A stretch of DNA of 64,000 bases. Source: Pararhizobium capsulatum DSM 1112. Lineage in GTDB: Bacteria; Pseudomonadota; Alphaproteobacteria; Rhizobiales; Rhizobiaceae. The notes beneath the pieces were generated by a model. That model did not search any database and had not been told where the DNA came from. It worked only from the letters and a program-made list of their open reading frames with translations. The position numbers and the translations under genes are program-made. The stretch covers positions 372,001 to 436,000 of the forward strand of contig NZ_JAUSVF010000002.1 in the NCBI RefSeq assembly GCF_030814475.1, written 5' to 3'. Shown in pieces: positions 41,401-56,270 of the stretch (the stretch's first letter is position 1; each line of letters begins with the position of its first letter).

Positions 41401-44400
41401 TCGGTCGCGGCGAGGCCGCCGAGATCGGTGGCCGTGACCTTGATGCCCTGTGTGCCGATATTCGCAGCCGCTGGCGTGCCGGCAAATGTGCGTGTCGTGG
41501 TGTCGAAGGTCAGCCAGGCGGGAAGCGCCGAGCCATCAGCGGCGGTAGCCGTGTAGGTGAGCGCGTCGCCGGCATCAACGTCGGTAAAAATGCCGGCGGG
41601 CAGCACCAGCGAGAAGGACGTACCGACGACCGCGCTCTGGCCACCGGTCTGGACGGCGAGCACCGGTCCGTCGTTGGCGCCATGAATGCTGACTGTGAGC
41701 GTCGTCGAGGATGTGGCGCCAACCGTATCGCGCATAGTGTACGTGAAGACATCGGTCAGCATACTGGTCGATTGCAGCAAGGCCTGCACGGCCGCGTCGG
41801 TCTCGTTGACCGTGTAGGTGAAGGCGCCTGAGGCGTTGAGCACGAGGCTGCCATGCGCTCCGGCCAGCGCCGTGCCGAGCGTTCCGTTGACTGCACCGAA
41901 GCTGACCGCGGTAACGGCCTTGGTGTCGCCGGCGTTGGGATCGGTGTCGTTGGTCAGTACATTGCCGATGGCGGGCAGGCCGCCCGAGCCATTGGCGATA
42001 CCACCTTTTTCCGTGGCGTCGCTCGTGTCGGCCACCGCCGTCGGCGCGGTATTGGGCGTTGTTGTCACGACGATGTTGAAGGTCTCGGTCGCGGCGAGGC
42101 CGCTGAGATCGGTGGCCGTGACCTTGACGCCCTGTGTGCCAATATTCACAGCCGCTGGCGTGCCGGCAAATGTGCGTGTCGTGGTGTCGAAGGTCAGCCA
42201 GGCGGGTAGCGCCGAGCCATCAGCGGCGGTAGCCGTGTAGGTGAGCGTGTCGCCGGCATCAACGTCGGTAAAAGTGCCGGCGGGCAGCACCAGCGAGAAG
42301 GACGTGTCGATCACCGCGCTCTGGCCACCGGTCTGGACGGCGAGCACCGGTCCGTCGTTGGCGCCATGAATGCTGACCGTGAGCGTCGTCGAGGATGTGG
42401 CGCCAACCGTATCGCGCATAGTGTACGTGAAGACGTCGGTCAGCATACTGGTCGATTGCAGCAAGGCCTGTACGGCCGCGTCGGTCTCGTTGACCGTGTA
42501 TGTGAAGGCGCCTGAGGCGCTGAGCACGAGGCTGCCATGCGCTCCGGCGAGCGCCGTGCCGAGCGTTCCGTTGACTGCACCGAAGCTGACCGCGGTAACG
42601 GCCTTGGTGTCGCCGGCGTCGGGATCGGTGTCGTTGGTCAGTACATTGCCGATGGCGGGCAGGCCGCCCGAGCCATTGGCGATACCGCCTTTTTCCGTGG
42701 CGTCGCTCGTGTCGGCCACCGCCGTCGGCGCGGTATTGGCCGACGCCGGATTGAATAAGACATCGATCCAGTAGTTCTCGGCATTGAAAGTGTTGTTCGG
42801 AAAGACGCTGGCCGAATTGTACGCATAGACGCCGGCATTCGTGGGCGCCGAAAGGGGACCATTTGTCACGGCAGACGCGAAATAGTTTCCCGTTGCCGAA
42901 TAGTGCCCGTAGTTGGTGTGATATGACACCACATAGGTTGTACCGGGGGTGATTGAGACCGGAGTGGAAAAGCTCACCGTCTGCCAGCCGACCCCAGACT
43001 CGTTGGTGAAGGTGGCCGTAGCCAGCCTGGTCCCAGTGCTGGACCACAGCGAGCCCGTATGGGGGCCGATGTTCAAGTCGCTCTTATAGTATCGGACGCC
43101 CGCCACGGTGCCCGCCGTCGAAGACTGGAACTTCATTCCCACTTCGATAGCCTTGTCATCGACATCCGGCACGGCGGGCGGTGTCGCCGAAGCGGAAAAG
43201 AAATTGTTGCCGGTGACCGTCACGGTCCGGCCGGGACCGGCGGTCTCCAGGTTGACGCTGTCGTCCACCGCCCGGGTCTTGATCGTAAACGTGCCGGCTC
43301 TTGGTGCGACCCAGCTATAGGTCCAGGTTTCGTCTCCCACCGCCCAGTGCCACGTCGTGCCGCCATCGGTCGAAACTTCGACGGCGGCGATGACGCCACC
43401 GACGTCGGAGGCCGTTCCGCTGATGGTGATCGCGTCGCCCACCCTTAAGGCGGCCCCGTTATTTGGGGCGGTGATGGTAGACACCGGCTTAGTGACATCC
43501 GTCGACTGGATTGCCGGCGCCAGTCCGGTCTCCAGCGTACCGGGCTGAATCCCCATGTCAGCAAGCAGATTTACCATCGCCTGCTTGACGCGTGGGTCAA
43601 CCGGGGTCGCTTCGAGGTCATGGTGGGAATCGAGCCCCCACGCCCAGTAGACCGTGCCGGCCCCGAACACCAGGGCGCCGCTAGGAGCGCGGTATAATGT
43701 TAGATTGTGTGTTGCAGTTGCCGAGCCAGTTTTGGTGCCGTAGTCCAATAGATATTCGTCAACCGGCAGCGTAGTCGACGACAGTTCGATAAGACCAGCA
43801 GGACGGAAGCCATTGTCCGGTGACTCGTCCCATTCGTATCCGAGATAATTCCGCGTGAGGGTTGCGGTTTGACCCGGCAGCAGGTTCGCTACCGCAGTAT
43901 CCCGCCAGAAGCGCAGATTAGCGTCGTCATATGGGATATTGATCGCGTCGCTTCTGTACGAATCGACTTGGAACATTGTGCCACTAAGGGCATTCTCCGG
44001 CCGCCCACCGCCCACCGCGGTCGGAGAGACGAACCTCGGGTCCCGGTAGGTACCGGTCCATTGATTGTTCGGATCGATGGGGCCTGCTCTGGTTTCCTTG
44101 TAGGACACAAGCGTGCGGTAGGGTTGGGCTCCTGTGCTGATGCTGGGTGCAAAGCGCGTCTCCCAGTAAACCTCGTTGCCGCTCCAGAAGGACAGGTTCA
44201 CGCCGGCGTCCCGCGCTGCCTCGACGTTGGTGCGCTGCTGTCCCGACCAGTACTCGTCGTGGCCGACGCTCAGAAACATTTTGTGATTCTGGATTAGGTT
44301 GCCGAAACGATCGGAATCCATTCCGGCCATGTAAGAAACATCATAGCCGTTCTGCTCCAGCCATCGCAGGGCCGGGTACTCGACACCGAAAATGTAATCC

Positions 44401-45890
44401 TGCGGCCCCGCTGCGAGGCCGCCGCCTCTCGTTGTGATCGGGCGATTGTAGCTAACCGCATATGCGCGCCCGGGGGCGGAATCGCTACCAGGACCGTTAC
44501 CTTGATACAGGTTGGCGCCTCCCCAAGGGTTGTAAGCTTGCCAGGTTTCGTCCGAGGTCTGGAAGATGATGTCGCTGTGGCTACTGTCATCTCGAACGAT
44601 GAACGGAATCTGGTTCTCGCCGGAGGTACCGTCCTGGCGGACGAGCTTCGCGATGTAGATACCCGATACTGCGTCGGCTGGAATGGCCCAGGAGGCTGAA
44701 ACGGACCAATTTCCTGCATCGACCAAACCGGTGGCGCTATCGCGCAACGCCGTGGGCTGGCTCTGGACGCCGGTGTGCTGGACCGTGCCGACCTTTCTTG
44801 CACCCATGCCGCCGTAGTATCCGAGCCGATAGATGTCGATGCGATAGTTGCTGGAGTTTGTATTGATCTTAAAGTTGACGGTCTGGCCCCGGTTAGTGCT
44901 GATGTCGGTGGCGAAGCCCTCGATGTTTGCGCTGCCGGCGCCGACGATTCCCCATTCGCTCTCCGGATTGCCAGGCTTTTGGTTCTCCAGCACGATCTCG
45001 CTGGAAGCATCGGAGAACGTTGTGCTGGCCGTCTGATTGCCGGACGTCGCGGTCAGGCGCAGCATTGCGTTTGTAGCGCTTCCATCGGACGGCACGCGCC
45101 AATGCGCTACCACGACGCCATTGGCGAGCCCATCAGAATCACCAACGCCGCCGTCCCTCACACTGAACGGCGCATAGACGTCGGCAACGCCGTTCACGCC
45201 GGGATCACTGGCCAAATCGGCGATACCGAATGCGACCGAACTTCCAGGGGCAACTTTGGACACAACAAAGGTCGCTGTGCTGCCCGGCGCGTAGTCCGCT
45301 TTGTCCGTACTAACGGACAACGATTTGCTGGCGCTCCCGGCGGAAAGCCGCGACGGTTTCATGGCGGCGGACATTTCGGATTCGGACTTGGGAGCAGGCC
45401 ACGGCCGGTCGTCGGCGCGCGCCGAAGGGCGCCAAACTGCCGAAATCGCCACGTGCCCTGCCAGTTCCGCCGTCGCAAATGTCGTTTTTGAACCTGCTGC
45501 GACATAACGGTGGACACTTTCGGGGGTGCCGAAATTGTTGGTGGTCAAGCTGGCGATCGGAAATACGACGGAACTTCCGGGGTTCGCGCAGGTCACGGCG
45601 ACGGGACTGCCCGGCGCCGCATCCGCCAGGGCGCCGTGTTCGTTACGCAGGTCGTCCGACCAGACTGGAGCGCGGCGCCCCTGGCGTTCTTTCGGCGTGG
45701 CTTTCCGCCACCTCGCTTTGGTGTCGATGGCCAGCAATTTGAGAGCCGAATCGCCCAACAGAAATGATCGGAAATCCCACCAGCGGTCGTCACGCATAAG
45801 ATGACCTTTCGCGAAATCGCGCATAGGAAAGTCAAATAAGCGCGCCAGCATAAGCAAATCGAAAAACGGAAATAAGTCATACAAAAGCAT
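38436..45890 (-). CDS. Giant multidomain repeat protein (DMFase-like, DUF4082, VCBS/cadherin-like, Ig-like)
   Basis: Predicted protein of up to 2484 aa. Approximate order: two related APGS-containing segments (residues 80-250); a domain like the N,N-dimethylformamidase large subunit (about 300-830; LSVGHDEYWSGQQR and NLSFWSGNEVYWETR); a bacterial Ig-like domain (835-895); DUF4082 (about 900-1050); two 228-aa VCBS/cadherin-like units (1052-1505); five Ig-like repeats of about 95 aa (YRWQQ...LQQAQVGRQVRI); one and a half further VCBS units; and a final DUF4082 (2318-2484). It is probably a surface or secreted adhesin-like protein, but I see no signal peptide and no RTX nonapeptides. Starts: ATG 45890 lacks a ribosome-binding site, while ATG 45797 has AAAGG upstream. 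No neighbouring secretion genes are visible. Confidence 0.8.
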   Translation of the reverse strand: MLLYDLFPFFDLLMLARLFDFPMRDFAKGHLMRDDRWWDFRSFLLGDSALKLLAIDTKARWRKATPKERQGRRAPVWSDDLRNEHGALADAAPGSPVAVTCANPGSSVVFPIASLTTNNFGTPESVHRYVAAGSKTTFATAELAGHVAISAVWRPSARADDRPWPAPKSESEMSAAMKPSRLSAGSASKSLSVSTDKADYAPGSTATFVVSKVAPGSSVAFGIADLASDPGVNGVADVYAPFSVRDGGVGDSDGLANGVVVAHWRVPSDGSATNAMLRLTATSGNQTASTTFSDASSEIVLENQKPGNPESEWGIVGAGSANIEGFATDISTNRGQTVNFKINTNSSNYRIDIYRLGYYGGMGARKVGTVQHTGVQSQPTALRDSATGLVDAGNWSVSASWAIPADAVSGIYIAKLVRQDGTSGENQIPFIVRDDSSHSDIIFQTSDETWQAYNPWGGANLYQGNGPGSDSAPGRAYAVSYNRPITTRGGGLAAGPQDYIFGVEYPALRWLEQNGYDVSYMAGMDSDRFGNLIQNHKMFLSVGHDEYWSGQQRTNVEAARDAGVNLSFWSGNEVYWETRFAPSISTGAQPYRTLVSYKETRAGPIDPNNQWTGTYRDPRFVSPTAVGGGRPENALSGTMFQVDSYRSDAINIPYDDANLRFWRDTAVANLLPGQTATLTRNYLGYEWDESPDNGFRPAGLIELSSTTLPVDEYLLDYGTKTGSATATHNLTLYRAPSGALVFGAGTVYWAWGLDSHHDLEATPVDPRVKQAMVNLLADMGIQPGTLETGLAPAIQSTDVTKPVSTITAPNNGAALRVGDAITISGTASDVGGVIAAVEVSTDGGTTWHWAVGDETWTYSWVAPRAGTFTIKTRAVDDSVNLETAGPGRTVTVTGNNFFSASATPPAVPDVDDKAIEVGMKFQSSTAGTVAGVRYYKSDLNIGPHTGSLWSSTGTRLATATFTNESGVGWQTVSFSTPVSITPGTTYVVSYHTNYGHYSATGNYFASAVTNGPLSAPTNAGVYAYNSASVFPNNTFNAENYWIDVLFNPASANTAPTAVADTSDATEKGGIANGSGGLPAIGNVLTNDTDPDAGDTKAVTAVSFGAVNGTLGTALAGAHGSLVLSASGAFTYTVNETDAAVQALLQSTSMLTDVFTYTMRDTVGATSSTTLTVSIHGANDGPVLAVQTGGQSAVIDTSFSLVLPAGTFTDVDAGDTLTYTATAADGSALPAWLTFDTTTRTFAGTPAAVNIGTQGVKVTATDLSGLAATETFNIVVTTTPNTAPTAVADTSDATEKGGIANGSGGLPAIGNVLTNDTDPNAGDTKAVTAVSFGAVNGTLGTALAGAHGSLVLNASGAFTYTVNETDAAVQALLQSTSMLTDVFTYTMRDTVGATSSTTLTVSIHGANDGPVLAVQTGGQSAVVGTSFSLVLPAGIFTDVDAGDALTYTATAADGSALPAWLTFDTTTRTFAGTPAAANIGTQGIKVTATDLGGLAATETFNIAVTVVQTQGVVSLNGTPTQYQTIAANILDVDGLLPGTTITYRWQQSGDNGNTWTDIAGATTSALTLQQDQVGKRARVVATYTDALGNAESVTSSSTNAVANVNDVGLASFAGAPVQGQALVANVADPDGLANVTITYRWQQLVGSTWSNISGATGPSWTLQAAQVGRQVRLRVTYTDQGTATESNRTSPATPLIIASNPAGNDSGVVSLSGTPTQNQTLAASVTDVDGVTPAAVSYRWQQSNGSSWSDIADATASALTLQQAQVGRQVRILATYTDSQGNIATVSSAPTSAIANANDVGVATITGTPVQGKTLTAAATDLDGLANVTMTYSWQQLIGTTWTNISGATGQAWTLQAAQLGRQVRVRVSYTDQLSGVESNRTSAPTPLVSPATNNQGVLSISGTPTQNQLLTALVTDPDGVPGSVSYQWQQSSNGTIWTNIGGATARTLPLQQAQVGSFVRATANYVDTLGSVENVSSPATPSAVANVNDGPVLAVQTGGQSAVIDTSFSLVLPAGTFTDVDAGDTLAYTATAADGSALPAWLTFDTTTRTFAGTPAAVNIGTQGVKVTATDLSGLAATETFNIVVTTTPNTAPTAVADTSDATEKGGIANGSGGLPAIGNVLTNDTDPNAGDTKAVTAVSFGAVNGTLGTALAGAHGSLVLNASGAFTYTVNETDAAVQALLQSTSMLTDVFTYTMRDTVGATSSTTLTVSIHGANDGPVLAVQTGGQSAVVGTSFSLVLPAGIFTDVDAGDTLTYTATAADGSALPAWLTFDTTTRTFAGTPAAANIGTQGIKVTATDLSGLAATETFNIAVTAAPTTVSLFSASSTPALTSLNDGSQLEVGMKFTSSVAGEVIALKFYRSASDTGSNVVNLWTSTGTNLANATFTNTAASGWQTVTLATPVAITGGTTYVASYHTTGAYVATDNFFTTPVTNGPLTAPSSATAGGNGVYAYGGTSAIGIFPDQTFASANYYADVVFRPQLVS
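38948..39929 (-). repeat. Long internal direct repeat of the giant gene, copy 1
   Basis: This stretch is nearly identical to 41378-42359 at a constant offset of 2430 bp (810 codons), with only scattered single-base differences seen by eye. It encodes about one and a half VCBS/cadherin-like units. Such DNA-level identity implies recent duplication or gene conversion, because the intervening Ig-like region is diverged. Confidence 0.8.
41378..42359 (-). repeat. Long internal direct repeat of the giant gene, copy 2
   Basis: Partner of 38948-39929. Its 5' part (on the gene strand) also belongs to a 684-bp tandem pair: 41378-42062 aligns with 42062-42746 at an offset of 684 bp (228 codons). The gene therefore carries the same unit in several near-identical copies. 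Confidence 0.8.
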
Positions 45891-46474
45891 CAAAGACTAA
45901 CAATGGCTCACTAAAATTGATGTTGATCTACGTCGATGGGGTAGGTGACCCAAGTTAAAACCGCCGGAAATATTTTTGAACGGTTGCCTCTATCAGACAG
46001 TCACGCCGGCAGCGGTCTTCCAACGTGCGATCTATTGATCTCCAAAATTCGGTGTAAGGCGCTGTTAGTCTAAATCCCTGACCCGTCGATCTTCTGAGCG
46101 ACTCTGCCTTCCCAGGATGAAGGCGTTGAGAGGCGATTGAGGTTGGCCGAGAGGCCCCGGTTCCAATCGTGAGCCAGCATTTTCATCTTATCGGGGGGCA
46201 ATCACCCATGTCAGAAATTGCTGAGGAAATGGCGATGAGTGAACCGCCCGCGATTACCTCATGTTCAAGAGCTTTAAGAATGCGAGAAAAGTTTGCGCAG
46301 TCGATACGCTCCAAGTTGTCAGTTCATACCGAGAGACTCGGATGGCGGTAGAAAATGCTCCCGGGCGACGCCGTGTCGATCCCTGTCGGCGGATATCAAA
46401 TGAGCGGCGCCCGGCTTGACTTAATTCCAAAACGGCCTTAGCAAGTTGTAGGCCTAACCCTACAATTGGATACC
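45891..46474. other. Divergent intergenic region
   Basis: About 580 bp separates the giant leftward gene from the amino-acid-type transporter operon. No supported gene or RNA was recognised. The right end holds an inverted repeat next to the permease start, listed separately. Confidence 0.5.
46446..46465. promoter_or_regulatory. Inverted repeat TTGTAGG-N6-CCTACAA before the transporter operon
   Basis: Perfect 7-bp arms (46446-46452 and 46459-46465) end nine bases before the permease ATG at 46475. Because the operon encodes a HutC-type GntR regulator, this is the most likely operator. It occupies the place of a ribosome-binding site, so the message may have a very short leader or start at TTG 46466. 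Confidence 0.5.
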
Positions 46475-47401
46475 ATGACCCAATCGTCTGTAAAATCAAC
46501 TTCCGCGCTATCCTTGGCAGATCTGCCAGGACCGGACGCGCCTATTCGCCGATTGCGCCACCCTGGGCGCTGGCTCAGCGGCATCGCCGTCATTCTACTG
46601 CTTGCCGTAATCGGTCGCGCCTTTGCAGTCGGGCAAATCCAATGGCCCGTGGTCGGAGAGTTCCTGACAGCCGGTGTCATCATCACCGGTTTTGGCTGGA
46701 CCCTTTTGATCTCGGCCTGCGCTCTGGTACTCGGCGTCGCGCTCGGCTTTGGTTTCGGCATCATGCGCCATTCGCAAAACCCGATCCTGCGTTTCGCTGC
46801 CTGGCTTTATGTCTGGATATTCCGCGGCACCCCGGTTCTGCTGCAGCTTCTTATCTGGTTCAACATCGCGCTTGTCTTTCCACGACTCTACATTCCGGGC
46901 CTTGTCGATGAGCGCATGGTCGATGTGGTGACGCCCTTCGTCGCGGCCGTTCTCGGCCTCGGCGTCAACGAGGGTTCCTATCTGACGGAAGTGGTGCGCG
47001 GTGGCATCGGCTCCGTCGACCATGGCCAAAAGGAAGCGGCTCATACGCTCGGTATGACGCCCGGCCAGACAATGCGTCGTATCATCCTGCCGCAGACCTT
47101 GCGGCTGATCCTGCCCGTTCTGGGCAATAGCGCCATCGGGATGCTGAAATTCTCTTCGCTCGCCGCAACAATCGCCATGGGCGAAATGCTGAACGCAGCT
47201 CAGCGGATTTACTTCATCAACGGCGCCGTCATTGAGCTGCTGTTCGTCTGCGCTGCCTGGTATCTGGCGGGGACGACCGTGCTCTCCATCGGCCAATATT
47301 ATCTTGAACGTTATTTTGGCCGTGACGCCGCGGCTGCCACCGGCGGCTGGCGTTGGTTCAAAGGTTGGGCGCGGCGCCCGGCTGTCGAGGGGGAAGCATG
47401 A
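46475..47401 (+). CDS. Amino-acid-type ABC transporter permease (HisM/GlnP family)
   Basis: Inner-membrane permease of about 308 aa. An N-terminal tail precedes helix 1 ([20 protein letters not shown]). Family features are [35 protein letters not shown] and the ATPase-contact loop [39 protein letters not shown]. It is the only permease of the system, so it probably works as a homodimer. The start is ATG 46475, with TTG 46466 possible; no good ribosome-binding site is seen. Its end overlaps the ATPase start (ATGA). Confidence 0.85.
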
Positions 47402-48162
47402 GTCTCGCGGTCAAGGCGGTCGGAATCCGCAAGAGTTTTGGCAGTCACGAGGTCCTGAAAGGCCTCGATTTGGAAGTCGCCTATGGCGAAGTGCTGTGCA
47501 TCCTTGGCCCTTCGGGCAGCGGCAAGAGTACCTTCCTGCGCTGCATCAACCATCTGGAAACGCCCAACAGCGGTTATGTCTGGGTCGACGGCGCCATCAT
47601 GGGCTACGAGCTTAATCGCGGCGCCCTGCAGGAACTGCCGATCAAGCGGCTGCGCGCCCAGCAGAGCCACCTCGGCATCGTGTTCCAGCATTTCAACCTG
47701 TTCGCCCATCGTACTGTGCTTGGCAATGTCATCGAGGGTCCAATGGTCGTGCGTGGTCTGCGCCGCGCCGAAGCAGAAGCTCGCGCCATGGATCTGTTGG
47801 AACAAGTCGGAATGGCCGGCAAAGCGTTGAGCTATCCCTCGCAGCTTTCCGGCGGCCAGAAGCAGCGCGTGGCGATCGCCCGATCGCTGGCGATGGAACC
47901 GCGCGTGATGCTGTTTGACGAACCGACATCAGCGCTCGACCCTGAACTGGTCGGCGAGGTGCTGGAAGTCATGCGCAATCTGGCGCGCGGTGGCACCACC
48001 ATGATCGTCGTCACCCATGAAATCGGCTTTGCCCGTGAGGTGGCCGACCGCGTTGTGGTGATGATCGATGGAGAAATTCGCGAAACAGGTGCGCCGGGAC
48101 AAGTCCTCAGCAATCCCGACGACCCGCGTGTGCGCACATTCCTCAGCCGCGTACTGGCCTGA
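47398..48162 (+). CDS. Amino-acid-type ABC transporter ATPase (GlnQ family)
   Basis: Cytoplasmic ATPase of 254 aa. Complete motifs: Walker [11 protein letters not shown]-loop [13 protein letters not shown], signature [17 protein letters not shown], Walker [17 protein letters not shown] and the H-loop [17 protein letters not shown]. The length and the MNH-like ends match the polar amino acid subfamily. The start overlaps the permease stop by four bases, and the receptor gene follows 33 bp later. Confidence 0.9.
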
Positions 48163-48195
48163 GGTTCACACCTTCAAAATGGGAGAACGAAGAGA

Positions 48196-49056
48196 ATGAA
48201 ACGACTACTGCCAATGCTACTGGGACTGGTATCCACAACCTTAGTCGGCCTCGCTGCATGCGGCGCGGCTCACGCCGCCGACCAAAAACTGGTCGTCGCC
48301 CTGCCCGAAGCCGTGCGAACCGCCGGCAAGCTGAACGTGACGATCAGCCTTGCCTATCCGCCAATGGAATATAACGATGCCGGCTCCACAGAACTCAAGG
48401 GCTTCGACATCGATCTCGCCAAGGCCATTGCCGAACGTCTCGGCCTTTCGCCAGAATTCCAGAATGTCGAATTCCCGCAGCTGATCCCCCAGGTCGTTAC
48501 CGGCCGGTCCGATCTGATCATGACAGCCTTCTCCGACAAGGTCGAGCGCCAGACGCAGCTCGATTTCATCGACTACTTCCAGACGGGCAATGTTTTGTAT
48601 TCAACTGTCGACCACCAGAGCGAGATCAAGACCGAGGCTGACCTCTGCGGCAAGACCGTGGCAGTGGCGACGGGTACAAGCTGGGTCACCTGGACGGAGG
48701 AGCTCGGCAAGGCCAAGTGCGCAGAAGACAAACTTATTACCGTCATCCAGATCCCGACCCAGGCCGAGCATATCATGCAAATTCGCCAGGGCCGCGCGCA
48801 GGCTTCGGTGATTGGACTGGAAGGGCTTCTGGACCTGATGAAGCACGAGCCTGGTAAATTCTACCAGATCGGCGAAGTCGGAGACGTCAACCACTACGGC
48901 ATCGCTTTTGCCAAATCGAACAGCCAGTTGCGTGACGCCGTATTGGGCGCGCTCGACGCTCTGAAGGCCGATGGCACCTATACACAAATCCTCGACCGCT
49001 ACGGCTTGAATCAAGCAGGCGTGAAGGAGTTCAAGGTAAACGGAACCACGAAGTAA
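48196..49056 (+). CDS. Amino-acid-type substrate-binding protein (family 3)
   Basis: Extracytoplasmic receptor of 286 aa. The N-terminal hydrophobic segment ends in GLAACGAAHAADQ: LAAC is a possible lipobox, while AHA-AD is a possible signal peptidase I site, so it may be a lipoprotein or a soluble periplasmic protein. Family-3 motifs are YPPMEYNDAGSTELKGFDIDLAKAIAERLGL, VEFPQLIPQVVTGRSDLIM, ADLCGKTVAVATGTSW and YGIAFAKSNSQLRDAVLGALDALKADGTYTQILDRYGL. The ligand is unknown. The downstream kinase suggests it carries a sugar-like hydroxyl as well as an amino-acid-like part. Confidence 0.86.
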   Translation: MKRLLPMLLGLVSTTLVGLAACGAAHAADQKLVVALPEAVRTAGKLNVTISLAYPPMEYNDAGSTELKGFDIDLAKAIAERLGLSPEFQNVEFPQLIPQVVTGRSDLIMTAFSDKVERQTQLDFIDYFQTGNVLYSTVDHQSEIKTEADLCGKTVAVATGTSWVTWTEELGKAKCAEDKLITVIQIPTQAEHIMQIRQGRAQASVIGLEGLLDLMKHEPGKFYQIGEVGDVNHYGIAFAKSNSQLRDAVLGALDALKADGTYTQILDRYGLNQAGVKEFKVNGTTK

Positions 49057-49077
49057 ACGACCCATCTGGAGCCGATC

Positions 49078-49863
49078 TTGACCCACCCTTCCATACCAGA
49101 CACCCCCATCGCAACGGGCGAAAGCTCCGATGACAGACTGTCCCGGTTGAGGCTCGATCTTTATTCGAGCGAGCAGCTTTACCGGCAGCTTTATCGGGCA
49201 TTGCGCGCAGCCATTCTCAGCGGCGATTTTTCCGAAGGGGAGGCCATCCCCTCGGAAAACCAGTTGCGCGATCAGTTCGGCATCGCCCGAACGACAGTGC
49301 GCAACGCGATGGCGCTTCTGGTGTCGGAAGGGTTGGTCCAGCAGGTTCGCGGGCGAGGGACGATCGTTTCGCATCGGCCGATCAGCCACAATATCTGGAA
49401 TTTTGGCAGCTTTACCGAACTGGCGCGCCGGCAAGGTCAGCGGCCAGTGACGCGCGTGCTGGAACATCGGGTGGAAAACGGCGAGCTGCTGCTGGTGCGT
49501 GCTCGCGGCCTTGCTAATGGTGAAACGGTGAACTGGCTGAACGTCGATACGTCGCAGCTGGACCTTACCCTCTATCCGGGCATCGACCGAAACGACTTCG
49601 CGGCGCAATCGCTCTATGAGGTATTGCGCCGCGATTATGATCGCCATCCCCTACGCTCGGAACTGCTGCTAACTGTCGTGCCGCCGTCCGATCGTCTGCG
49701 GGAGGTCTTTGCCCCGGCGCTGGATGTGCCGGGCTATCTTTGCGCCAGCGGGGATGTACTCGACGCCGACGACCGGTTGGTGGAGCGAACGTCGATTGTC
49801 TACTCGCCGGCGGTCCAGATGAAATTCGCTACCCGCTGGGGGCGTGATACCGCGCCGGCTTGA
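49078..49863 (+). CDS. GntR-family regulator, HutC/UTRA subfamily
   Basis: Regulator of 261 aa encoded inside the operon it probably controls. The winged helix is YRQLYRALRAAILSGDFSEGEAIPSENQLRDQFGIARTTVRNAMALL followed by GLVQQVRGRGTIV. The UTRA ligand domain follows (VENGELLLVRARGLANGETVNWLNVD, SLYEVLRRDYD, LERTSIVYSP-like VERTSIVYSP). The start codon is TTG 49078 with TGGAG upstream. HutC-type regulators such as FrlR bind sugar-phosphate or amino-acid-derived inducers; here the inducer may be the product of the PfkB kinase. Confidence 0.84.
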   Translation: MTHPSIPDTPIATGESSDDRLSRLRLDLYSSEQLYRQLYRALRAAILSGDFSEGEAIPSENQLRDQFGIARTTVRNAMALLVSEGLVQQVRGRGTIVSHRPISHNIWNFGSFTELARRQGQRPVTRVLEHRVENGELLLVRARGLANGETVNWLNVDTSQLDLTLYPGIDRNDFAAQSLYEVLRRDYDRHPLRSELLLTVVPPSDRLREVFAPALDVPGYLCASGDVLDADDRLVERTSIVYSPAVQMKFATRWGRDTAPA

Positions 49864-49889
49864 TAGTCGCGCGACGCAGGAGAAGAACT

Positions 49890-50630
49890 ATGAGCCGTTT
49901 CGGCGAGACATTTATTAACCCAAAACCCATTCTCGGCATGTTGCATCTGGCTGGAGAAAGCCCCGCGGCGAAGCTCGACCAGGCCGAGGAAGAAGCCCGC
50001 ATCATGGCCGGCGAAGGGATCGACGGTCTTGTCGTCGAGAACTATTTCGGTGATGCCGAGGATGTTGAACGGGTGCTGGAGCGGTTGTGCGGCCTTGATC
50101 TGGGAACGCGCATCGGCATCAATGTGCTGCGGGACAACGTATGCGCCTTTAAGCTCGCCAAACTTTATCCGGTCTCCTTCATCCAGGTCGATTCCGTCGC
50201 CGGCCATCTCCCGCTGGAACAGGATGCGCCTTTTGCGGCCGATCTTGCCGCGCACCGCGAAAGCGTTCCGGCGCTGTTGCTCGGTGGTGTGCGGTTCAAA
50301 TACCAGCCGATCCTGTCGGGCCGACCCGAGGACGAGGACGTGCGCATCGGCGCATCCCGCTGTGATGGTCTTGTTGTGACCTCGGACGCCACCGGCCAGC
50401 CGACCGACATGGACAAGGTGGCACGTTTCCGCACGGCTACAGGCGGAACAGTGCCGCTGCTGATCGGAGCCGGCTTGACTGAAACCAATGCCGCGGAACA
50501 ATTGGCGCATGCCGACGGCGCCGTCGTCGGTAGCTGGTTCAAGCACGACCACAGGGATACTGGCCGCGTCGAGGCGGCCCATGTCGCCCGTCTGATGCGG
50601 GCCGTGCGCGCAGCAAGGCACGCCGCATGA
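49890..50630 (+). CDS. BtpA/SgcQ-family TIM-barrel protein
   Basis: Protein of 246 aa beginning MSRFGETF, with CAGGAGAAGAAC upstream of ATG 49890. It has the BtpA/SgcQ pattern: KPILGMLHLAGESP, EGIDGLVVENYFGDAEDVE, RIGINVLRDNV, FIQVDSVAGHLP and the C-terminal GLTETNAAEQLAHADGAVVGSWFKHD, a phosphate-binding-like glycine loop. The family is poorly characterised; members occur with sugar operons (SgcQ) and photosystem I biogenesis (BtpA). In this operon, next to a PfkB kinase, it may be a lyase or aldolase acting on a phosphorylated intermediate; that is inference. It overlaps the next gene by four bases. Confidence 0.78.
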   Translation: MSRFGETFINPKPILGMLHLAGESPAAKLDQAEEEARIMAGEGIDGLVVENYFGDAEDVERVLERLCGLDLGTRIGINVLRDNVCAFKLAKLYPVSFIQVDSVAGHLPLEQDAPFAADLAAHRESVPALLLGGVRFKYQPILSGRPEDEDVRIGASRCDGLVVTSDATGQPTDMDKVARFRTATGGTVPLLIGAGLTETNAAEQLAHADGAVVGSWFKHDHRDTGRVEAAHVARLMRAVRAARHAA

Positions 50631-51139
50631 ACGCCCCGGATGTCATTGTTGCCCGTCCGGTGACGCCGGACAATTTTGCACGCTTCGGCACGGTCTACGA
50701 TCTCACCAATGATACCGATCCCAAGGCTATCTGGACCGCAGGTGAGGGCTGGAGCGACGGTTTTACCAGGATGCCCCTGATCGAGGGTTCCGGCCATCTT
50801 GGCGTAACACGCACCGCCGCCGCTCCGTGGCTCTGCGCGGCAATGGAACGGCATCCGGGGACCGAAGAAGCGATCTTCTGTGCGGCACAGCCGATCATTC
50901 TTGCTGTTGCCCCCGCATCAGACGCCAATGCGGCCAATCGGGAAGATATTGAAGCCTTCGTGATTGAACCGGGTCAAGCTGTCGTGATGCGCCGCGGCGT
51001 TTGGCACGATGCCTGCCGGGGTGCGTCCGGTCCTGCGGCCTACTACTGGATGGCCATTTGCGGACTTGGCGAAAGCCCCTGGGTTCCCGTTGCAGGGGGC
51101 CCAAGACTGGTGCAAGCAGATCCGGAGGAAAACACATGA
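50627..51139 (+). CDS. Ureidoglycolate lyase (AllA)-like protein
   Basis: Cupin-fold protein of 170 aa. AllA-family traits are VTPDNFARFGTVYDL near the start, the central MERHPGTEEAIFC, IILAVAPASD, and the C-terminal FVIEPGQAVVMRRGVWHDA. True AllA cleaves ureidoglycolate to glyoxylate and urea, but no allantoin pathway gene is nearby, so this may act on another small hydroxy-acid conjugate. ATG 50627 overlaps the upstream stop, and the downstream kinase gene overlaps its stop. This tight coupling indicates one pathway. Confidence 0.72.
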   Translation: MNAPDVIVARPVTPDNFARFGTVYDLTNDTDPKAIWTAGEGWSDGFTRMPLIEGSGHLGVTRTAAAPWLCAAMERHPGTEEAIFCAAQPIILAVAPASDANAANREDIEAFVIEPGQAVVMRRGVWHDACRGASGPAAYYWMAICGLGESPWVPVAGGPRLVQADPEENT

Positions 51140-52068
51140 CCGCCTTTTTCATCGGTGACGTGGCGATTGACGAGTATTATACCGCCGATCGTTGGCCCGG
51201 CCGCGCCGACAAGGGCCGGGTCACCGAACTGCCTGCCGAAATCGGCGGCTCAATCGCCAATGCCGCCGTCGTCCATGCAAGGCTTGGCGGCGAGACGCAG
51301 TTCATCTCGCTGCTGAACTCCAGCCCGCTGTCGCAGAGGCTGATTGCCGACTTGCGGGAGAACCGCGTCCGCGTCGATCATATGCTGACAGATCCCGCCA
51401 TTCCGGAATCACGCAATCTTATCTTTCTCGTCGACGGCGAGCATATCGTGCTGACCGTCGAAATGGGCGAGCAGCCGATGTGGCTCACATCGGAGAGCCT
51501 GAAAGCGTTGCGTCGGCCCGGCTTTCTCTACACGACGCTTTACCGCGTTCGCCGGCTGCACGCCCGGACAGAGGATGGCGTCCTGAAGCAAGCCGCCCTT
51601 CTTGCCGATCTCCGTCAACATGAGCGCCGTTCCATCTTCGATCTCGACGTCGGCGGCTGCGCGCCCGAAGACATGCCCTATCTCACAGGCGCCGCTGTCG
51701 TCATCTTCAATCAGGTCGGCTTCCGCGCCGCCTTCGGCCATGATGACATCACCCGCATCGGCCCCTGGACGCGGGATTATCAGATAGGATGGGTGGTGCG
51801 CACACTCGCCGCCAACGGCGCTGAGGCCTGCAACGGCGACACGGTCCTGCGCACGGCCGGATTTCCTGTGGATGTCATCGACGTCACCGGTGCCGGGGAC
51901 ACGTTCGGTGGCTCGTTGACCTGGTGCCTTTCGCAAGGCCAGAACTTTAACGAAGCACTGGACTTCTCCGTCGCAGCGGCATCCCGTTCGGTGACCATCC
52001 ATGGACCGCGCGGCGGCAAGGCAAGCGCCGACGAAATCCGCCGCTGGCGTGAAAAAGGACACCAGTAA
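51136..52068 (+). CDS. PfkB-family carbohydrate kinase
   Basis: Ribokinase-superfamily kinase of 310 aa. The N-terminus MTAFFIGDVAIDEYYTADRWPG and the glycine motif EIGGSIANAAVVHARLGGETQFISLL are family typical. The anion-hole and catalytic aspartate are in DVTGAGDTFGGSLTWCLSQG, followed by AVAAASRSVTIHGPRGG-like SVAAASRSVTIHGPRGG. ATG 51136 follows GGAGGAAAAC and overlaps the AllA-like stop. Substrates of PfkB kinases include ribose, fructose derivatives and glycated amino acids (FrlD). With an amino-acid-type importer and a HutC-type regulator, as in fructoselysine operons, a sugar-amino-acid conjugate is a reasonable hypothesis. Confidence 0.83.
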   Translation: MTAFFIGDVAIDEYYTADRWPGRADKGRVTELPAEIGGSIANAAVVHARLGGETQFISLLNSSPLSQRLIADLRENRVRVDHMLTDPAIPESRNLIFLVDGEHIVLTVEMGEQPMWLTSESLKALRRPGFLYTTLYRVRRLHARTEDGVLKQAALLADLRQHERRSIFDLDVGGCAPEDMPYLTGAAVVIFNQVGFRAAFGHDDITRIGPWTRDYQIGWVVRTLAANGAEACNGDTVLRTAGFPVDVIDVTGAGDTFGGSLTWCLSQGQNFNEALDFSVAAASRSVTIHGPRGGKASADEIRRWREKGHQ

Positions 52069-52265
52069 CGCGATCCGGCGCAGTGATGTGTGGATGGCGC
52101 CCGCTTGGCGCGGTGGTTTCGGGCGATGTTTGAGCGTGGCGGGTCGATTACATGACCAGCGTCGCTTCGTTGCCGATGGAAAAAGGGCGGAGAACTCGGT
52201 ATCATTTGCCGCCAAGATCCGGAAATTCTTCAATCTTCACGCCTCCTAACATGCAGGGAGCTTTC

Positions 52266-52721
52266 ATGAGCCAGCAACGTGCCGACACCACGATCATTTC
52301 TGCATGTCATGGGGCGATGATCAGTCATCCCGTCCGGCGCGTCGCTCTTCTCCTGGTCTGCACACCCTATCTGCTGAGCGGCATTCACAAGCTCATGGAC
52401 TTCGACGCCGGCATTGCCGAAATGAGCCGGAACGGTCTCCTGCCTGCGGCGCCCTATGCCGCAGCGACGATCCTCCTGCAGCTTGGCTGCTGCGCCATGA
52501 TCCTCACCGGCTTTTGCCGTTGGCTGGGCGCCCTGGTTCTGGCCGCTTTCACCCTCGCGGCCTCCGTCATCGCCAATGCCTTCTGGCAAACGACGCCACA
52601 AATGTATGAGACCATGCGTGCCGATTTCGCCGACCATCTGGCGCTGGTGGGCGGGCTCCTGCTGATCGCATGGTACGGACTTCACAAATATAAGAACCGT
52701 GGCGAAGACGACTGGAAATAG
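52266..52721 (+). CDS. DoxX-family membrane protein
   Basis: Small integral membrane protein of 151 aa with four predicted helices: VALLLVCTPYLLSGIHKL, AATILLQLGCCAMILTGF, LGALVLAAFTLAASVIA and HLALVGGLLLIAWYGL. The pattern PYLLSGIHKLMDFDAGIAEM is typical of the DoxX family. AGGGAG lies upstream of ATG 52266. It starts about 200 bp after the kinase gene, so it may be a separate unit. DoxX proteins are linked to thiosulfate or redox stress, but a specific role cannot be read here. Confidence 0.72.
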   Translation: MSQQRADTTIISACHGAMISHPVRRVALLLVCTPYLLSGIHKLMDFDAGIAEMSRNGLLPAAPYAAATILLQLGCCAMILTGFCRWLGALVLAAFTLAASVIANAFWQTTPQMYETMRADFADHLALVGGLLLIAWYGLHKYKNRGEDDWK

Positions 52722-52955
52722 TTCCGCGGCAAGCTGTTGCAAAATGTCCTGGCGACCGATGGGGGACCGTGCCTCTTCGGGCTGCGGTGCAACGCGGTAT
52801 AAATTGAGCACACCCGGCGATCGATCGCCATCCGGGAAGGGAGAGGGTGGTAACGCCTGCCAGAACGGTAGCGACCTAGCAGGCTGTTGAAAAAGTCCCT
52901 GGCGTGAAGACTTTGGTCGTGATTCATTGGCTTTGTCGAGATTCGGAGTTGATGG

Positions 52956-54047
52956 ATGCGCGGCAGCGATGTGAGGAGCGGTCAACTTTTCAGTTATGTC
53001 GATCTTGAGGATCGTGTTCGTCGGGATCATCCGCTGCGGGCCATTCGTCAGATCGTGAACGACGCGCTCGTTTTGTTGGAACGGGAGTTTGCAGGGCTCT
53101 ATTCACCGATCGGGCGGCCATCGATCGCGCCTGAGAAGCTTCTGCGCGCCATGCTTTTGCAAGCCTTCTATTCGATCCGTTCTGAGCGGCTTTTGATGGA
53201 GCGACTGGAATACGATCTTCTGTTCCGCTGGTTCGTGGACATTGGCATTGACGATCCAGCCTGGGACCATTCGGTGTTTTCGAAGAACCGCGACCGGTTG
53301 CTAGAAGGAGACATCGCCGCGAAGTTCCTGGGTGCGATCCTTTCGCAGCCCAAGGTAAAGCGGCTGTTGTCAACGGACCACTTCTCTGTGGATGGCACGC
53401 TGATCGAAGCCTGGGCGTCGATGAAGAGCTTCAAGCCGAAGGACGGCTCGGGCGAGCCACCATCGGATGACGGCGGTCGGAATGTGGAAGCAGACTTTCA
53501 TGGCGAAAGGCGTTCCAACGAGACGCATGCTTCAACGACCGATCCGGATGCAAGACTTTATAGAAAGGGAAAAGGCAAGGAGGCCAAGCTGTGCTTCATG
53601 GGGCACGGGCTGATGGAAAACCGCCATGGCCTGCTGGTCGATGCCTACCTGACGGAGGCCAGCGGATATGCCGAACGGGTAGCGGCGCTGCACATGATCG
53701 AGCCCTTCGCTGGGCGGACACAAGCGACTACCCTGGGTGCCGACAAGGCCTATGACACAAAGGACTTCGTCAAAGATTTGCGGTCGATGAAGGTGACGCC
53801 CCATGTGGCGCAGAACGTCAATGGTCGCCGCTCCGCCATTGACGGGCGCACGACGCGCCATTCCGGCTATGGGGTCAGCTTGCGTATCCGCAAGCGCATC
53901 GAGGAGGCGTTCGGCTGGATCAAGACTGTCGCGGGGCAGGACAAGACGAAGTTCCGTGGTCGCGACCGCGTCGGATGGGCCTTCACCTTCGCGGCTGCCG
54001 CCTATGATCTGGTGCGGTTACCGAAACTGATGGCGGTGTCGTCATGA
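52956..54047 (+). CDS. IS5-family transposase
   Basis: DDE transposase of 363 aa. The N-terminal domain has VDLEDRVRRDHPLRAIRQIV and GRPSIAPEKLLRAMLLQAFYSIRSER, widely shared by IS5-family elements. Catalytic residues are Asp146 (VDGTLIEAW), Asp263 (GADKAYDT) and Glu316 in RKRIEEAFGWIK, the last part of the family's Y-R-E-K region. The frame is uninterrupted. Its TGA overlaps the ATG of the passenger gene (ATGA). Confidence 0.92.
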   Translation: MRGSDVRSGQLFSYVDLEDRVRRDHPLRAIRQIVNDALVLLEREFAGLYSPIGRPSIAPEKLLRAMLLQAFYSIRSERLLMERLEYDLLFRWFVDIGIDDPAWDHSVFSKNRDRLLEGDIAAKFLGAILSQPKVKRLLSTDHFSVDGTLIEAWASMKSFKPKDGSGEPPSDDGGRNVEADFHGERRSNETHASTTDPDARLYRKGKGKEAKLCFMGHGLMENRHGLLVDAYLTEASGYAERVAALHMIEPFAGRTQATTLGADKAYDTKDFVKDLRSMKVTPHVAQNVNGRRSAIDGRTTRHSGYGVSLRIRKRIEEAFGWIKTVAGQDKTKFRGRDRVGWAFTFAAAAYDLVRLPKLMAVSS

Positions 54048-54509: not shown

Positions 54510-55346
54510 CTAGAGTGACCACAGCCTGCGGGCATTCGCCGAGAGCAGCTTCGTGCGCTCATCAATGGATGAGCCCTCGATCAGCGCATGCGTCGCGGCG
54601 ACCCATGTGGACAGATTGCCACCCAATGTGCAAACCGGCCAGTCGCTGCCCCAGATGACGCGATCCCACCCGAAGGCGCTGATCGTGTGTTCGACATAGG
54701 GGCGCAGCGTTTCGACATTCCAATTCTCCGCCTCTGCATAGGCGACCACGCCGGAAATCTTCGCAACGACGTTCGGGCGGCGGGAGATCTCTGCCATATG
54801 ATCGCGCCATGGGAGATCCTTGCCGCTCTTGATGTCCGGAACGCCGCAATGGTCGAGGATAAACTGGACATCGGGAGCGAGGTCGGCAAGTGCAAGGGCC
54901 TTCGGGATCTGGTGCGGCAGGACGCAGAGATCGAAGGTGAAGCGTGTTCCGCCGAGCCGCTTGATGTTTTCGCGGAAGGTCGCACCCTCTGAAACGTCAT
55001 CCGACACGACATGCAGCACCCGGCGAAAACCTTTGACAAAAAGATTTGCCACCTGGCGTTCGAGATAGGCGGGGAAATCCGGTTCTTCGGGCCGGCAAGC
55101 GGCGATCGCACCGTTGAGCAGGCTGCCGGCCGTCTCGGATAGCCGCTTTATTTCAGCGGTTTCCTTCTCCATTTGCGATGGATCGACATCCACTTCCATA
55201 TGAAGCGACATGCCGATGCCGGCGCGCTTGGCCTCCAGGGCATATGTTTCGTAGAGATAATCGCGGTCGAGGGCAGGGGCGGATGACAGCCACGGATAGC
55301 TCAGCGCTGATTTATTGATGAGATGCAGGTGGGTATCGATGATCAT
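54510..55346 (-). CDS. Amidohydrolase-family sugar lactonase (L-fuconolactonase-like)
   Basis: TIM-barrel amidohydrolase of 278 aa. It has the N-terminal metal motif MIIDTHLHLI (HxH), FILDHCGVPDIKSG (His), KISGVVAYAEAENW and WGSDWPVCTLGG (Asp), the signature of the family that opens L-fucono- and L-rhamnono-1,4-lactones. The gene is leftward, downstream of the IclR-type gene and opposite to the transporter operon, whose enzymes fit L-fucose oxidation. It would supply the lactone hydrolysis step, forming L-fuconate. The RIME-like repeat and IS lie just after its stop. Confidence 0.8.
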   Translation of the reverse strand: MIIDTHLHLINKSALSYPWLSSAPALDRDYLYETYALEAKRAGIGMSLHMEVDVDPSQMEKETAEIKRLSETAGSLLNGAIAACRPEEPDFPAYLERQVANLFVKGFRRVLHVVSDDVSEGATFRENIKRLGGTRFTFDLCVLPHQIPKALALADLAPDVQFILDHCGVPDIKSGKDLPWRDHMAEISRRPNVVAKISGVVAYAEAENWNVETLRPYVEHTISAFGWDRVIWGSDWPVCTLGGNLSTWVAATHALIEGSSIDERTKLLSANARRLWSL

Positions 55347-55449
55347 GACGTGGCTCCTCCTCGGTCGCGATCAAACTCTCACAAGAAAATTATTTGTTCA
55401 AATAAGAATTTTCATGTCTCCCGACCCATCGCTTTAAGCGGCGTCCTCT

Positions 55450-56244
55450 CTATTCCTGCACCGCTGCAACATCGGAACCTGCCAGTAGCGAAAGCTGGGC
55501 AGCCGTTTCCACCAGCATTGAAATGGTGCGGGTGATGTCAGGGGCGGTTGGATTGTTGACGAGGGTGATATAGGGCACCGTGAGGGCGGCGATACCCGCC
55601 CCATCCGGCCCAAGGATCGGTGCCGAGAGGTTATAGACGCCGGCCGTCTGGGCGCTGGCCATCATCTCGTAGCCGCGCTCGCGGATCTGGTCGAGCCGGG
55701 CATAGAACTCGTCGGAGAGGGTTACTTCGCTGCGGCTTTTAACATGCTCGGAGATCATCATCTCGCGGTCTTCGGCAGACCGGAAGGCGAGCAGAACATG
55801 GCCGGAACCCGTATCGAACAGGCTGATATGGGAGCCGACGCGGATCGAGATACCCCAGTAATCCGGGGCTTCCTGCTGGGCGACGACGACGGCTGCACCG
55901 CGGTCAAAGACGGCCAGCTGGTTGGCCTGCTTCGAGCGTTGCGCAAGCTCGCGCATCAACGGTGTGGCATAGGATGCAAGACGGCGCACCGGGGCGTGAA
56001 GCTGGGCAAGGCCGAAGAGCTTCAGCGTCAGCGAATACCGGTCGCCGTCAATGCGCGTCACGTAGCCGCGCCGCACGAGCCGGTCGAGCATGCGGTAGAA
56101 TTCGTTCGGGCTGCGATTAAGCTTCTTGGAAATTTCGGCCTGGGTCAGACCGCCATCGACGCCGGCCAGAAGTTCCAGAATGTCCAATCCCTTATCGAGA
56201 GCGGGCGCGCGGTAACGATCGGCCTCTTCGCTGTCTGTCGTCAT
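55450..56244 (-). CDS. IclR-family transcriptional regulator
   Basis: Regulator of 264 aa. The winged helix includes ALDKGLDILELLAGVDGGLTQAEISKKLNRSPNEFYRMLDRLVRRGYV. The GAF-like effector domain shows LRELAQRSKQANQLAVFDRGAAVVVAQQE and a C-terminal AGVYNLSAPILGPDGAGIAALTVPY. ATG 56244 has GGAGGAAGC upstream. It is divergent from the sugar transporter operon and on the same strand as the lactonase gene, so it probably controls both. Sugar-acid or lactone inducers are common for this group. Confidence 0.85.
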   Translation of the reverse strand: MTTDSEEADRYRAPALDKGLDILELLAGVDGGLTQAEISKKLNRSPNEFYRMLDRLVRRGYVTRIDGDRYSLTLKLFGLAQLHAPVRRLASYATPLMRELAQRSKQANQLAVFDRGAAVVVAQQEAPDYWGISIRVGSHISLFDTGSGHVLLAFRSAEDREMMISEHVKSRSEVTLSDEFYARLDQIRERGYEMMASAQTAGVYNLSAPILGPDGAGIAALTVPYITLVNNPTAPDITRTISMLVETAAQLSLLAGSDVAAVQE

Positions 56245-56270
56245 TGCTTCCTCCGTGAATATTAGCATCC

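Follow-up and report, generated by a model that had tools for sequence, protein, structure and literature searches.

A compact seven-gene cassette lies at positions 46475 to 52068 of a 64,000-nucleotide stretch of Pararhizobium capsulatum DSM 1112 (NZ_JAUSVF010000002.1, positions 372,001 to 436,000; the whole stretch is referred to here as the window, and its numbering is used throughout). The cassette encodes an amino-acid-type ATP-binding cassette (ABC) importer, a GntR-family regulator, a barrel of the BtpA/SgcQ family, an AllA-like cupin, and a PfkB-family sugar kinase. We tentatively propose, with confidence that stops somewhat short of even, that this is a kinase-first catabolic cassette for a conjugate of the sugar-amino-acid type and that BtpA occupies the cleavage position. 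The features computed directly were the gene set, its co-inheritance, a conserved palindrome, the pairing of BtpA with a phosphorylating module, a phosphate-barrel signature in BtpA, and the loss of an aspartate (Asp) in the receptor.

Gene content and layout of the cassette

All seven genes were intact, tightly packed frames on the plus strand with no internal stops, and all seven products passed Pfam gathering cut-offs (BPD_transp_1, ABC_tran, SBP_bac_3, GntR plus UTRA, BtpA, Ureidogly_lyase, and PfkB, respectively). A permease of the polar-amino-acid type (PAAT; 46475 to 47401, PF00528), with homologues at 58 to 95% identity in 46 loci, was followed by an ABC ATPase (47398 to 48162, PF00005), a periplasmic receptor (48196 to 49056, PF00497), and a GntR-family regulator with a UTRA domain and a TTG start (49078 to 49863, PF00392 and PF07702). 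The BtpA/SgcQ-family barrel (49890 to 50630, PF03437), the AllA-like cupin (50627 to 51139, PF04115, 49 bits), and the PfkB-family kinase (51136 to 52068, PF00294, 105.6 bits), whose VTGAGDTF motif was intact, completed the set. As read in the sequence, 4-base ATGA overlaps were present at the permease/ATPase, BtpA/AllA-like, and AllA-like/PfkB junctions. Comparison with four relatives (loci L001, L002, L003, and L103) gave ratios of nonsynonymous to synonymous substitution rates (dN/dS) of 0.025 to 0.138, and purifying selection acts on all seven genes. A preliminary description of this DNA had treated the genes as one operon and one pathway; the packing, the ATGA overlaps, and strong co-occurrence supported this.

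Co-inheritance of the cassette genes

Genome contigs were scanned once with a BtpA alignment, which yielded 242 confirmed BtpA loci; the best 80 formed the locus set. The genes in the fetched loci were mechanical open reading frame (ORF) calls, and counts over the 80 loci apply to the surroundings of the window's BtpA subfamily rather than to BtpA as a whole. The full set of seven had homologues together in 42 of the 80 loci: 28 from close Hyphomicrobiales, 6 of the Rhodobacterales type, 4 from a divergent Mesorhizobium/Pseudaminobacter branch, 3 from Arthrobacter, and 1 from a Thermomicrobiales metagenome-assembled genome. Within 7 kb of BtpA, an AllA-like gene was present in 56 of the 80, a kinase matching the cassette profile in 66, and a GntR gene of the cassette type in 58.

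When 297 genomes of the window's own family were surveyed, BtpA was present in 15 and an AllA-like gene was directly adjacent in the same 15; a PfkB gene of the cassette type was found in those 15 carriers, plus one decayed fragment. The permease was present at 71 to 100% identity in 13 of the family's genomes, all of them carriers, and the next matches reached at most 56%. The remaining two carriers (genomes G413 and G459) were of the L056 and L050 types and lacked the cassette permease. In a sample of 199 genomes from the order, BtpA was present in 2 and a strong AllA-like match in the same 2, and 9 more had weak AllA-type matches of 42 to 50 bits. A class-wide permease search of 289 genomes returned 2 relatives besides the window's own genome. 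That genome (6.48 Mb in 7 contigs) holds one BtpA gene, and its closest loci suggest that it groups with Ensifer, Shinella, and Rhizobium. In addition, 14 plasmid records carry BtpA of the cassette type.

Because all seven genes were together in so many of the loci and BtpA and AllA-like genes were side by side in the same family genomes, the gene grouping is far beyond chance. The cassette has a sparse, patchy distribution within its family; wherever the kinase is intact, it is inherited with BtpA and the AllA-like gene. The preliminary description had suggested looking for conserved co-occurrence across relatives, and the co-occurrence that emerged was strong. The decayed PfkB fragment outside the 15 carriers, in L108 (genome G402), had none of the other cassette genes around it and is a remnant of a lost cassette.

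BtpA and its phosphorylating partner

The proposed conjugate-cleaving enzyme, BtpA, scored 80.3 bits against PF03437, passing the gathering cut-off of 30, and 76.6 bits against TIGR00259, which was short of the cut-off of 153.4; it belongs to a divergent subfamily marked by the motifs VENYFGD and GGVRFKY. An alignment of 66 BtpA sequences contained 32 invariant columns, many of them polar (H19, E50, N78, D101, H106, K137, and T168). Escherichia coli SgcQ was 24% identical to the window BtpA and kept 15 of the 32 invariant residues, E50, H106, and K137 not being among them; thus, the window BtpA represents a distinct subfamily.

In addition to the 66 loci with a cassette-profile kinase, two loci (L054 and L072) had another PfkB gene nearby, for a total of 68. 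Another 8 loci had a mannose-type phosphotransferase system (PTS), with no PfkB match even at an E value of 1, and 4 had neither kinase nor PTS (L053, L055, L065, and L069, the last a 5.4-kb contig). The kinase-first logic of the preliminary description was supported by this pairing. BtpA profiles matched the β7-β8 region of LBCATS-a, which we read as an ancestral tryptophan synthase alpha, at an E value of 1e-4 (1.3e-5 with a broader profile). Further matches at the C-terminal phosphate-binding end were to CutC, natural TrpA, OMP decarboxylase (OMPDC), and PcrB. The kinase or PTS pairing and the profile matches to phosphate-binding barrels indicate that BtpA probably acts on a phosphorylated substrate.

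The β7-β8 motif had also raised the idea of a TrpF/HisA-like Amadori isomerase. We do not claim this function; the top structures were LBCATS-a, CutC, TrpA, PcrB, and OMPDC, and one TrpF (4aaj, E value of 0.057) was present among the best 60 of 93 structure matches.

Functional coupling was supported by natural BtpA fusions. Specifically, BtpA and the AllA-like protein form a single ORF in L056, and BtpA in L054 (8983 to 10920) is fused to an isomerase-like domain of about 400 residues that is related to an AP_endonuc_2-type protein of L046; a PfkB gene follows this fusion and an amino-acid permease gene precedes it. No enzyme activity for BtpA or SgcQ was found in the literature, where the name BtpA led to Brucella TIR effectors and otherwise to unrelated work.

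Some further neighbors were recorded. A protein family of roughly 395 residues, whose L046 member is AP_endonuc_2-like, recurred near BtpA, AllA-like, and PfkB genes in L046, L049, L051, L070, and L079, and the three examples scanned (L046, L049, and L070) had no NCBIfam name. A thiamine pyrophosphate enzyme and sugar-isomerase-like neighbors suggested a link to inositol/rhizopine catabolism in L046 only, and this idea was dropped. L074 (11688 to 14473) has consecutive genes for another PfkB kinase, a member of the IF-2B family, and a further, SgcQ-like BtpA, an arrangement that hints at aldose-1-phosphate-type chemistry in another BtpA branch.

The AllA-like cupin and the kinase

The AllA label should not be taken as a function. 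The protein scored at best 44.5 bits against AllA equivalog models with a cut-off of 260, and 38.8 bits against the subfamily model with a cut-off of 160. AllA of allantoin catabolism has the same PF04115 fold and the ERH and WH motifs in common with it, but E. coli AllA was 18% identical in alignment and AllA has a different gene neighborhood. On these measures, the AllA-like protein is not an AllA orthologue. The 13 cassette-type proteins compared, and E. coli AllA as well, all have Glu74, His76, and His127, which are putative metal ligands: by motif, they match Glu97, His99, and His150, the metal ligands given for a DUF4867 cupin in passages of PMC11968277. At the position of the fourth DUF4867 ligand in those passages, Glu103, the same motif comparison placed Glu, Gln, or Thr in the cassette-type cupins. 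DUF4867 itself did not match the AllA-like protein at an E value of 0.001.

An AllA-like gene was present only where a kinase gene was present (56 of 56 loci) and none of the 8 PTS loci had one at an E value of 0.1, which suggests that the cupin serves the kinase branch. Passages of PMC9594981 and PMC11968277 propose, without proof, that AllA-fold cupins in sugar clusters are ring openers or mutarotases in ketose pathways, and the latter report that DUF4867 had no activity when this role was tried on sulfoquinovose and sulfofructose. Given the link between cupin and kinase, the lack of AllA orthology, and a fold already proposed as a ring opener, opening of a ring or hemiaminal would be a better fit than ureido removal. 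A ureidoglycolate lyase function was disfavored by the scores below the AllA cut-offs and by the distribution, and the removal of a ureido or hydroxy-acid fragment, as envisaged in the preliminary description, was less supported for the same reasons.

In the case of the kinase, the best profile match was to ribokinase, with further matches to sulfofructose kinase and ketohexokinase and a weak match to pseudouridine kinase. The kinase was 37% identical to FrlD over 73 residues and did not reach the cut-off of the FrlD equivalog model (44.5 bits versus 247).

Receptor and importers

GlnH uses Asp157, which we take to be the residue that binds the alpha-ammonium group of the ligand. The window receptor has Gly-x-Glu at this position, and glycine (Gly) was found there in all 16 of the other cassette receptors aligned (16 loci of the 45 with a receptor match above 45% identity), with Arg75 kept. 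Asp was kept at this position in GlnH, HisJ, ArgT, SocA, and the receptors of other types from L046 and L049. A plain amino acid as the substrate was disfavored by the missing amine-binding Asp, and the ligand of the window importer would be a carboxylate with a substituted or absent alpha-amine.

Sister transporters pointed in a similar direction. Permeases about 46 to 56% identical to that of the window gave 31 matches (29 in the same family and 2 class-wide), and 20 neighborhoods were fetched. An argininosuccinate-lyase-like gene was present in 14 of the 20, and the sister receptors had Gly at the Asp157 position in 19 and serine in 1. The lack of Asp in the cassette receptor, as in the sister receptors, which often lie beside lyase-like genes, hints at an N-substituted amino acid.

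A PAAT permease was present in 47 of the 80 BtpA loci, and amino-acid permeases of the APC type were present in L054, L070, and L079. An SBP_bac_5 protein was encoded in L059 and an M18 aminopeptidase near L068, and all of these neighbors speak for the amino-acid side of the model. M24-type proteins were encoded near BtpA on the same strand in L045, L048, L050, L056, L058, L066, L075, and L078, and on the other strand in L052, L053, L055, and L065. In L058, the long N-terminal extension that a nucleoside hydrolase seemed to carry was an artefact of ORF calling; the hydrolase itself begins near 7812, and the M24 gene that precedes it is in a different frame.

Regulator and operator palindrome

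The regulator contains GntR and UTRA domains and is the probable local regulator of the operon. It had been called HutC, a name that was not borne out as a function, the score on the NCBI HutC model being 68.7 bits versus a cut-off of 220. A palindrome that is new in the present analysis, TTGTAGG-CCTAAC-CCTACAA (46446 to 46465, no strand), has perfect 7-bp arms and lies 9 bases 5' of the permease ATG. Its core, TGTAGG-N6-CCTACA, was present in 28 fetched loci at one copy per locus. The arms were kept and the spacer was changed in L029 to L031, and variants with one to three changes were found in L011, L024, L025, L104, L036, and three Arthrobacter loci; L026 and L044 had no palindrome within three changes.

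In its own genome, the palindrome was the sole site at zero to one mismatch. A reversed control pattern was found at one mismatch in two places per strand of the same genome, so one-mismatch uniqueness alone proves nothing; the weight is carried by conservation. Among 20 other genomes, 14 of them carriers, the palindrome occurred once each in 8 carriers, whereas the 6 genomes without an intact cassette had no copy, and its exact form was missing in the six other carriers (G069, G303, G372, G413, G459, and G482). We read the palindrome as a candidate site of the cassette's own GntR/UTRA regulator, which would repress the operon.

Neighboring genes and a Sinorhizobium meliloti relative

Directly downstream of the cassette (52152 to 54047) are genes for a DoxX-type membrane protein and an IS5/IS1182-type transposase. 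Upstream, a minus-strand frame (38436 to 45893) encodes a strongly repetitive protein of 2485 residues.

The nearest other transporter relative found was the S. meliloti locus L101 (permease 54%, ATPase 54%, and receptor 41% identical), which is probably the SMb21094 to SMb21097 cluster. In the literature passages available, SMb21095 to SMb21097 are described just as a transporter of unknown function beside argH2. The MmgE/PrpD protein of L101 matched IRG1 and IDS-epimerase structures, and its lyase was closest to argininosuccinate lyase. Around the sister transporters (L101 and L124 to L143), a second poorly described PAAT cluster recurred in 14 of the 20 neighborhoods; it has an ArgH-like lyase, often accompanied by MmgE/PrpD and polysaccharide-deacetylase-like proteins, and is perhaps for catabolism of N-succinyl-type amino acids. 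These clusters resemble the cassette in their sister PAAT importer and in a receptor that lacks the Asp, but they have lyase-like and MmgE/PrpD enzymes in place of the kinase, BtpA, and cupin. An amidohydrolase (77%) and an IclR regulator (89%) encoded at 54510 to 56268 of the window have S. meliloti counterparts right beside the L101 cluster; this co-location may be a coincidence or may mark a shared insertion site.

Discussion

The cassette reads as a locally regulated, self-contained catabolic operon with an orphan barrel at the cleavage position. In the route that we infer, the receptor and ABC importer would take up an N-substituted, amino-acid-like compound that bears a sugar, such as a glycated or glycosylated amino acid, with an Amadori-type ketosamine as one candidate. 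The PfkB kinase would phosphorylate a sugar hydroxyl, and the AllA-like metal cupin would supply the open-chain or carbinolamine form. BtpA, with the phosphate bound at the β7-β8 end, would then split the conjugate, yielding a sugar phosphate plus an amine or an amino acid, and the GntR/UTRA protein may repress the operon at the palindrome 5' of the permease gene.

BtpA would thus take the place held by the SIS-type deglycase FrlB in frl operons. As presented in passages of PMC12632257, the frl operons of E. coli and Bacillus subtilis (importer, FrlD, FrlB, and FrlR) likewise combine an importer, a regulator, and a PfkB kinase in one operon, with the kinase step first; the cassette differs in having BtpA and an AllA-like protein and no FrlB found. 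A search with a single query of moderate sensitivity, E. coli FrlB, returned no SIS homologue in any of the 80 loci at the thresholds used, in agreement with the frl-like layout lacking a SIS deglycase that had been described earlier. The E. coli K-12 sgc locus (SgcQ, PTS, SgcX, and SgcE) is similar in that a BtpA-family protein accompanies a phosphorylating importer, and SgcX is annotated with a Zn-dependent exopeptidase domain. The sgc locus has a PTS in place of a kinase, lacks an AllA-like protein, and encodes a distant SgcQ, for which no function was found in print. Sulfoglycolysis clusters (the SqvB/SftX DUF4867 cupin, sulfofructose kinase, and aldolase) also place an AllA-fold metal cupin beside ketose-phosphorylating or ketose-cleaving enzymes, but the cassette has a PF04115 cupin rather than DUF4867, an amino-acid-type importer, and a BtpA barrel rather than one of the FbaA/FbaB type. 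The earlier statement that no described pathway has the same set was supported in open-licence full texts, where searches turned up no pathway built from these genes.

Several observations weigh against this model. SocA, which we take to be the receptor of the Agrobacterium deoxyfructosyl-glutamine system, keeps the Asp, and a classic Amadori amino acid is thus not straightforward. Comparison of the BtpA profile with single E. coli barrels in hhalign was uninformative (SgcQ 99.4%; 12 others, including TrpA, TrpF, and HisA, below 0.3%). Sugar-type ABC importers are present in L045 and L056, and nucleoside hydrolases are encoded near BtpA in L053, L055, L065, and L058, on the same strand in L058 only. 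Energy-coupling factor (ECF) importers, with a CbiQ-type T subunit, ECF ATPases, and a CD3073-like S component that scored below its cut-off, are present in 10 of the 80 loci (L048, L058, L060, L063, L064, L066, L071, L074, L075, and L078). ECF importers typically serve vitamins and similar micronutrients, and their use by these ten distant loci weakens the amino-acid part of the model. No paper on CD3073 together with an ECF transporter was found; identification of what BtpA acts on would at the same time define the specificity of the CD3073-like S family.

One alternative, which we consider unlikely, follows sulfoglycolysis: an acidic ketose or sugar acid without an amino acid would be imported, ring-opened by the cupin, and phosphorylated, and BtpA, acting as an aldolase, would break it into two small fragments. 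The sulfofructose kinase match and the sugar-type importers of L045 and L056 fit this scheme, but most loci have amino-acid-type importers, with APC permeases in three, and the cassette lacks an isomerase. Tryptophan synthase alpha, a retro-aldol enzyme, is among the best BtpA profile matches; however, the TrpA match is limited to the phosphate-binding end. AllA-fold cupins (SqvB and DUF4867) do sit in sulfoglycolytic clusters as proposed ring openers (passages of PMC9594981 and PMC11968277), yet DUF4867 was inactive on sulfo-sugars when assayed (passages of PMC11968277). Decidedly less probable is the salvage of a modified nucleoside, vitamin-like glycoside, or C-glycoside, in which the kinase would phosphorylate ribose and BtpA would break the glycosidic or C-C bond. 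PsuK and PsuG act on pseudouridine in such a kinase-then-cleavage order. In favor of this alternative are the ribokinase and pseudouridine kinase matches, the ECF importers, the nearby nucleoside hydrolases, and the L074 gene row described above. Nevertheless, the importer of the window cassette is of the PAAT type and the cassette lacks a hydrolase, and no nucleoside importer or PsuG turned up among the scanned neighbors, although no search was aimed at them.

The ureido model of the preliminary description starts from a sugar-ureido or sugar-guanidino conjugate; after phosphorylation, BtpA would cut it, and urea or a hydroxy acid would be set free by the AllA-like protein. This model now seems improbable to about the same degree as nucleoside salvage or slightly more. 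Membership of the AllA-like protein in PF04115 and a receptor without the ammonium-binding Asp are compatible with it. In its favor, too, a Creatinase_N-domain protein is encoded just 5' of BtpA in L050, with relatives in L045, L056, and L052 (other strand), and two Aminobacter loci (L004 and L019) carry a true AllA homologue 3 to 5 kb downstream on the other strand. Against this stand the scores below all AllA equivalog cut-offs, the lack of a urease, allantoate, or glyoxylate gene in the cassette, and the tie of the AllA-like gene to the kinase and its absence from PTS loci, which a downstream ureido step would not predict. Very unlikely, in our estimate, is a noncatalytic BtpA that serves as a phosphosugar-binding regulatory or assembly protein. 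Photosystem I biogenesis, the role of cyanobacterial BtpA, is the only named role among the NCBIfam matches, but the score on the photosystem model was 63.8 bits versus 400; the many invariant polar columns and co-inheritance with a kinase or PTS also argue against a noncatalytic protein.

Returning to the kinase-first cleavage of a sugar conjugate, a broader claim is possible, one that we hold more doubtfully than the proposal for the cassette itself. BtpA of the GGVRFKY type may be an unrecognized enzyme class with a phosphate-binding barrel, one that breaks down sugar conjugates of amino acids or amines once these are phosphorylated. Such enzymes would have no relation to SIS deglycases and would be served by either a PfkB kinase, usually with a ring-opening AllA-fold metal cupin, or a PTS. 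Within a single short unit, the operon links two proteins that are orphan in function, those of the widespread BtpA/SgcQ family and the AllA-fold cupin (the latter according to passages of PMC11968277), with a kinase, a receptor, and a palindromic site. If the claim is true, an orphan family with members in Hyphomicrobiales, Rhodobacterales, Actinobacteria, Thermomicrobiales, Bacilli, and Clostridia would gain its first biochemical function, and there would be a lead for E. coli SgcQ. If the model for the cassette is right, bacteria of soil, plants, and other habitats would share an unrecognized route for sugar-conjugated amino acids.

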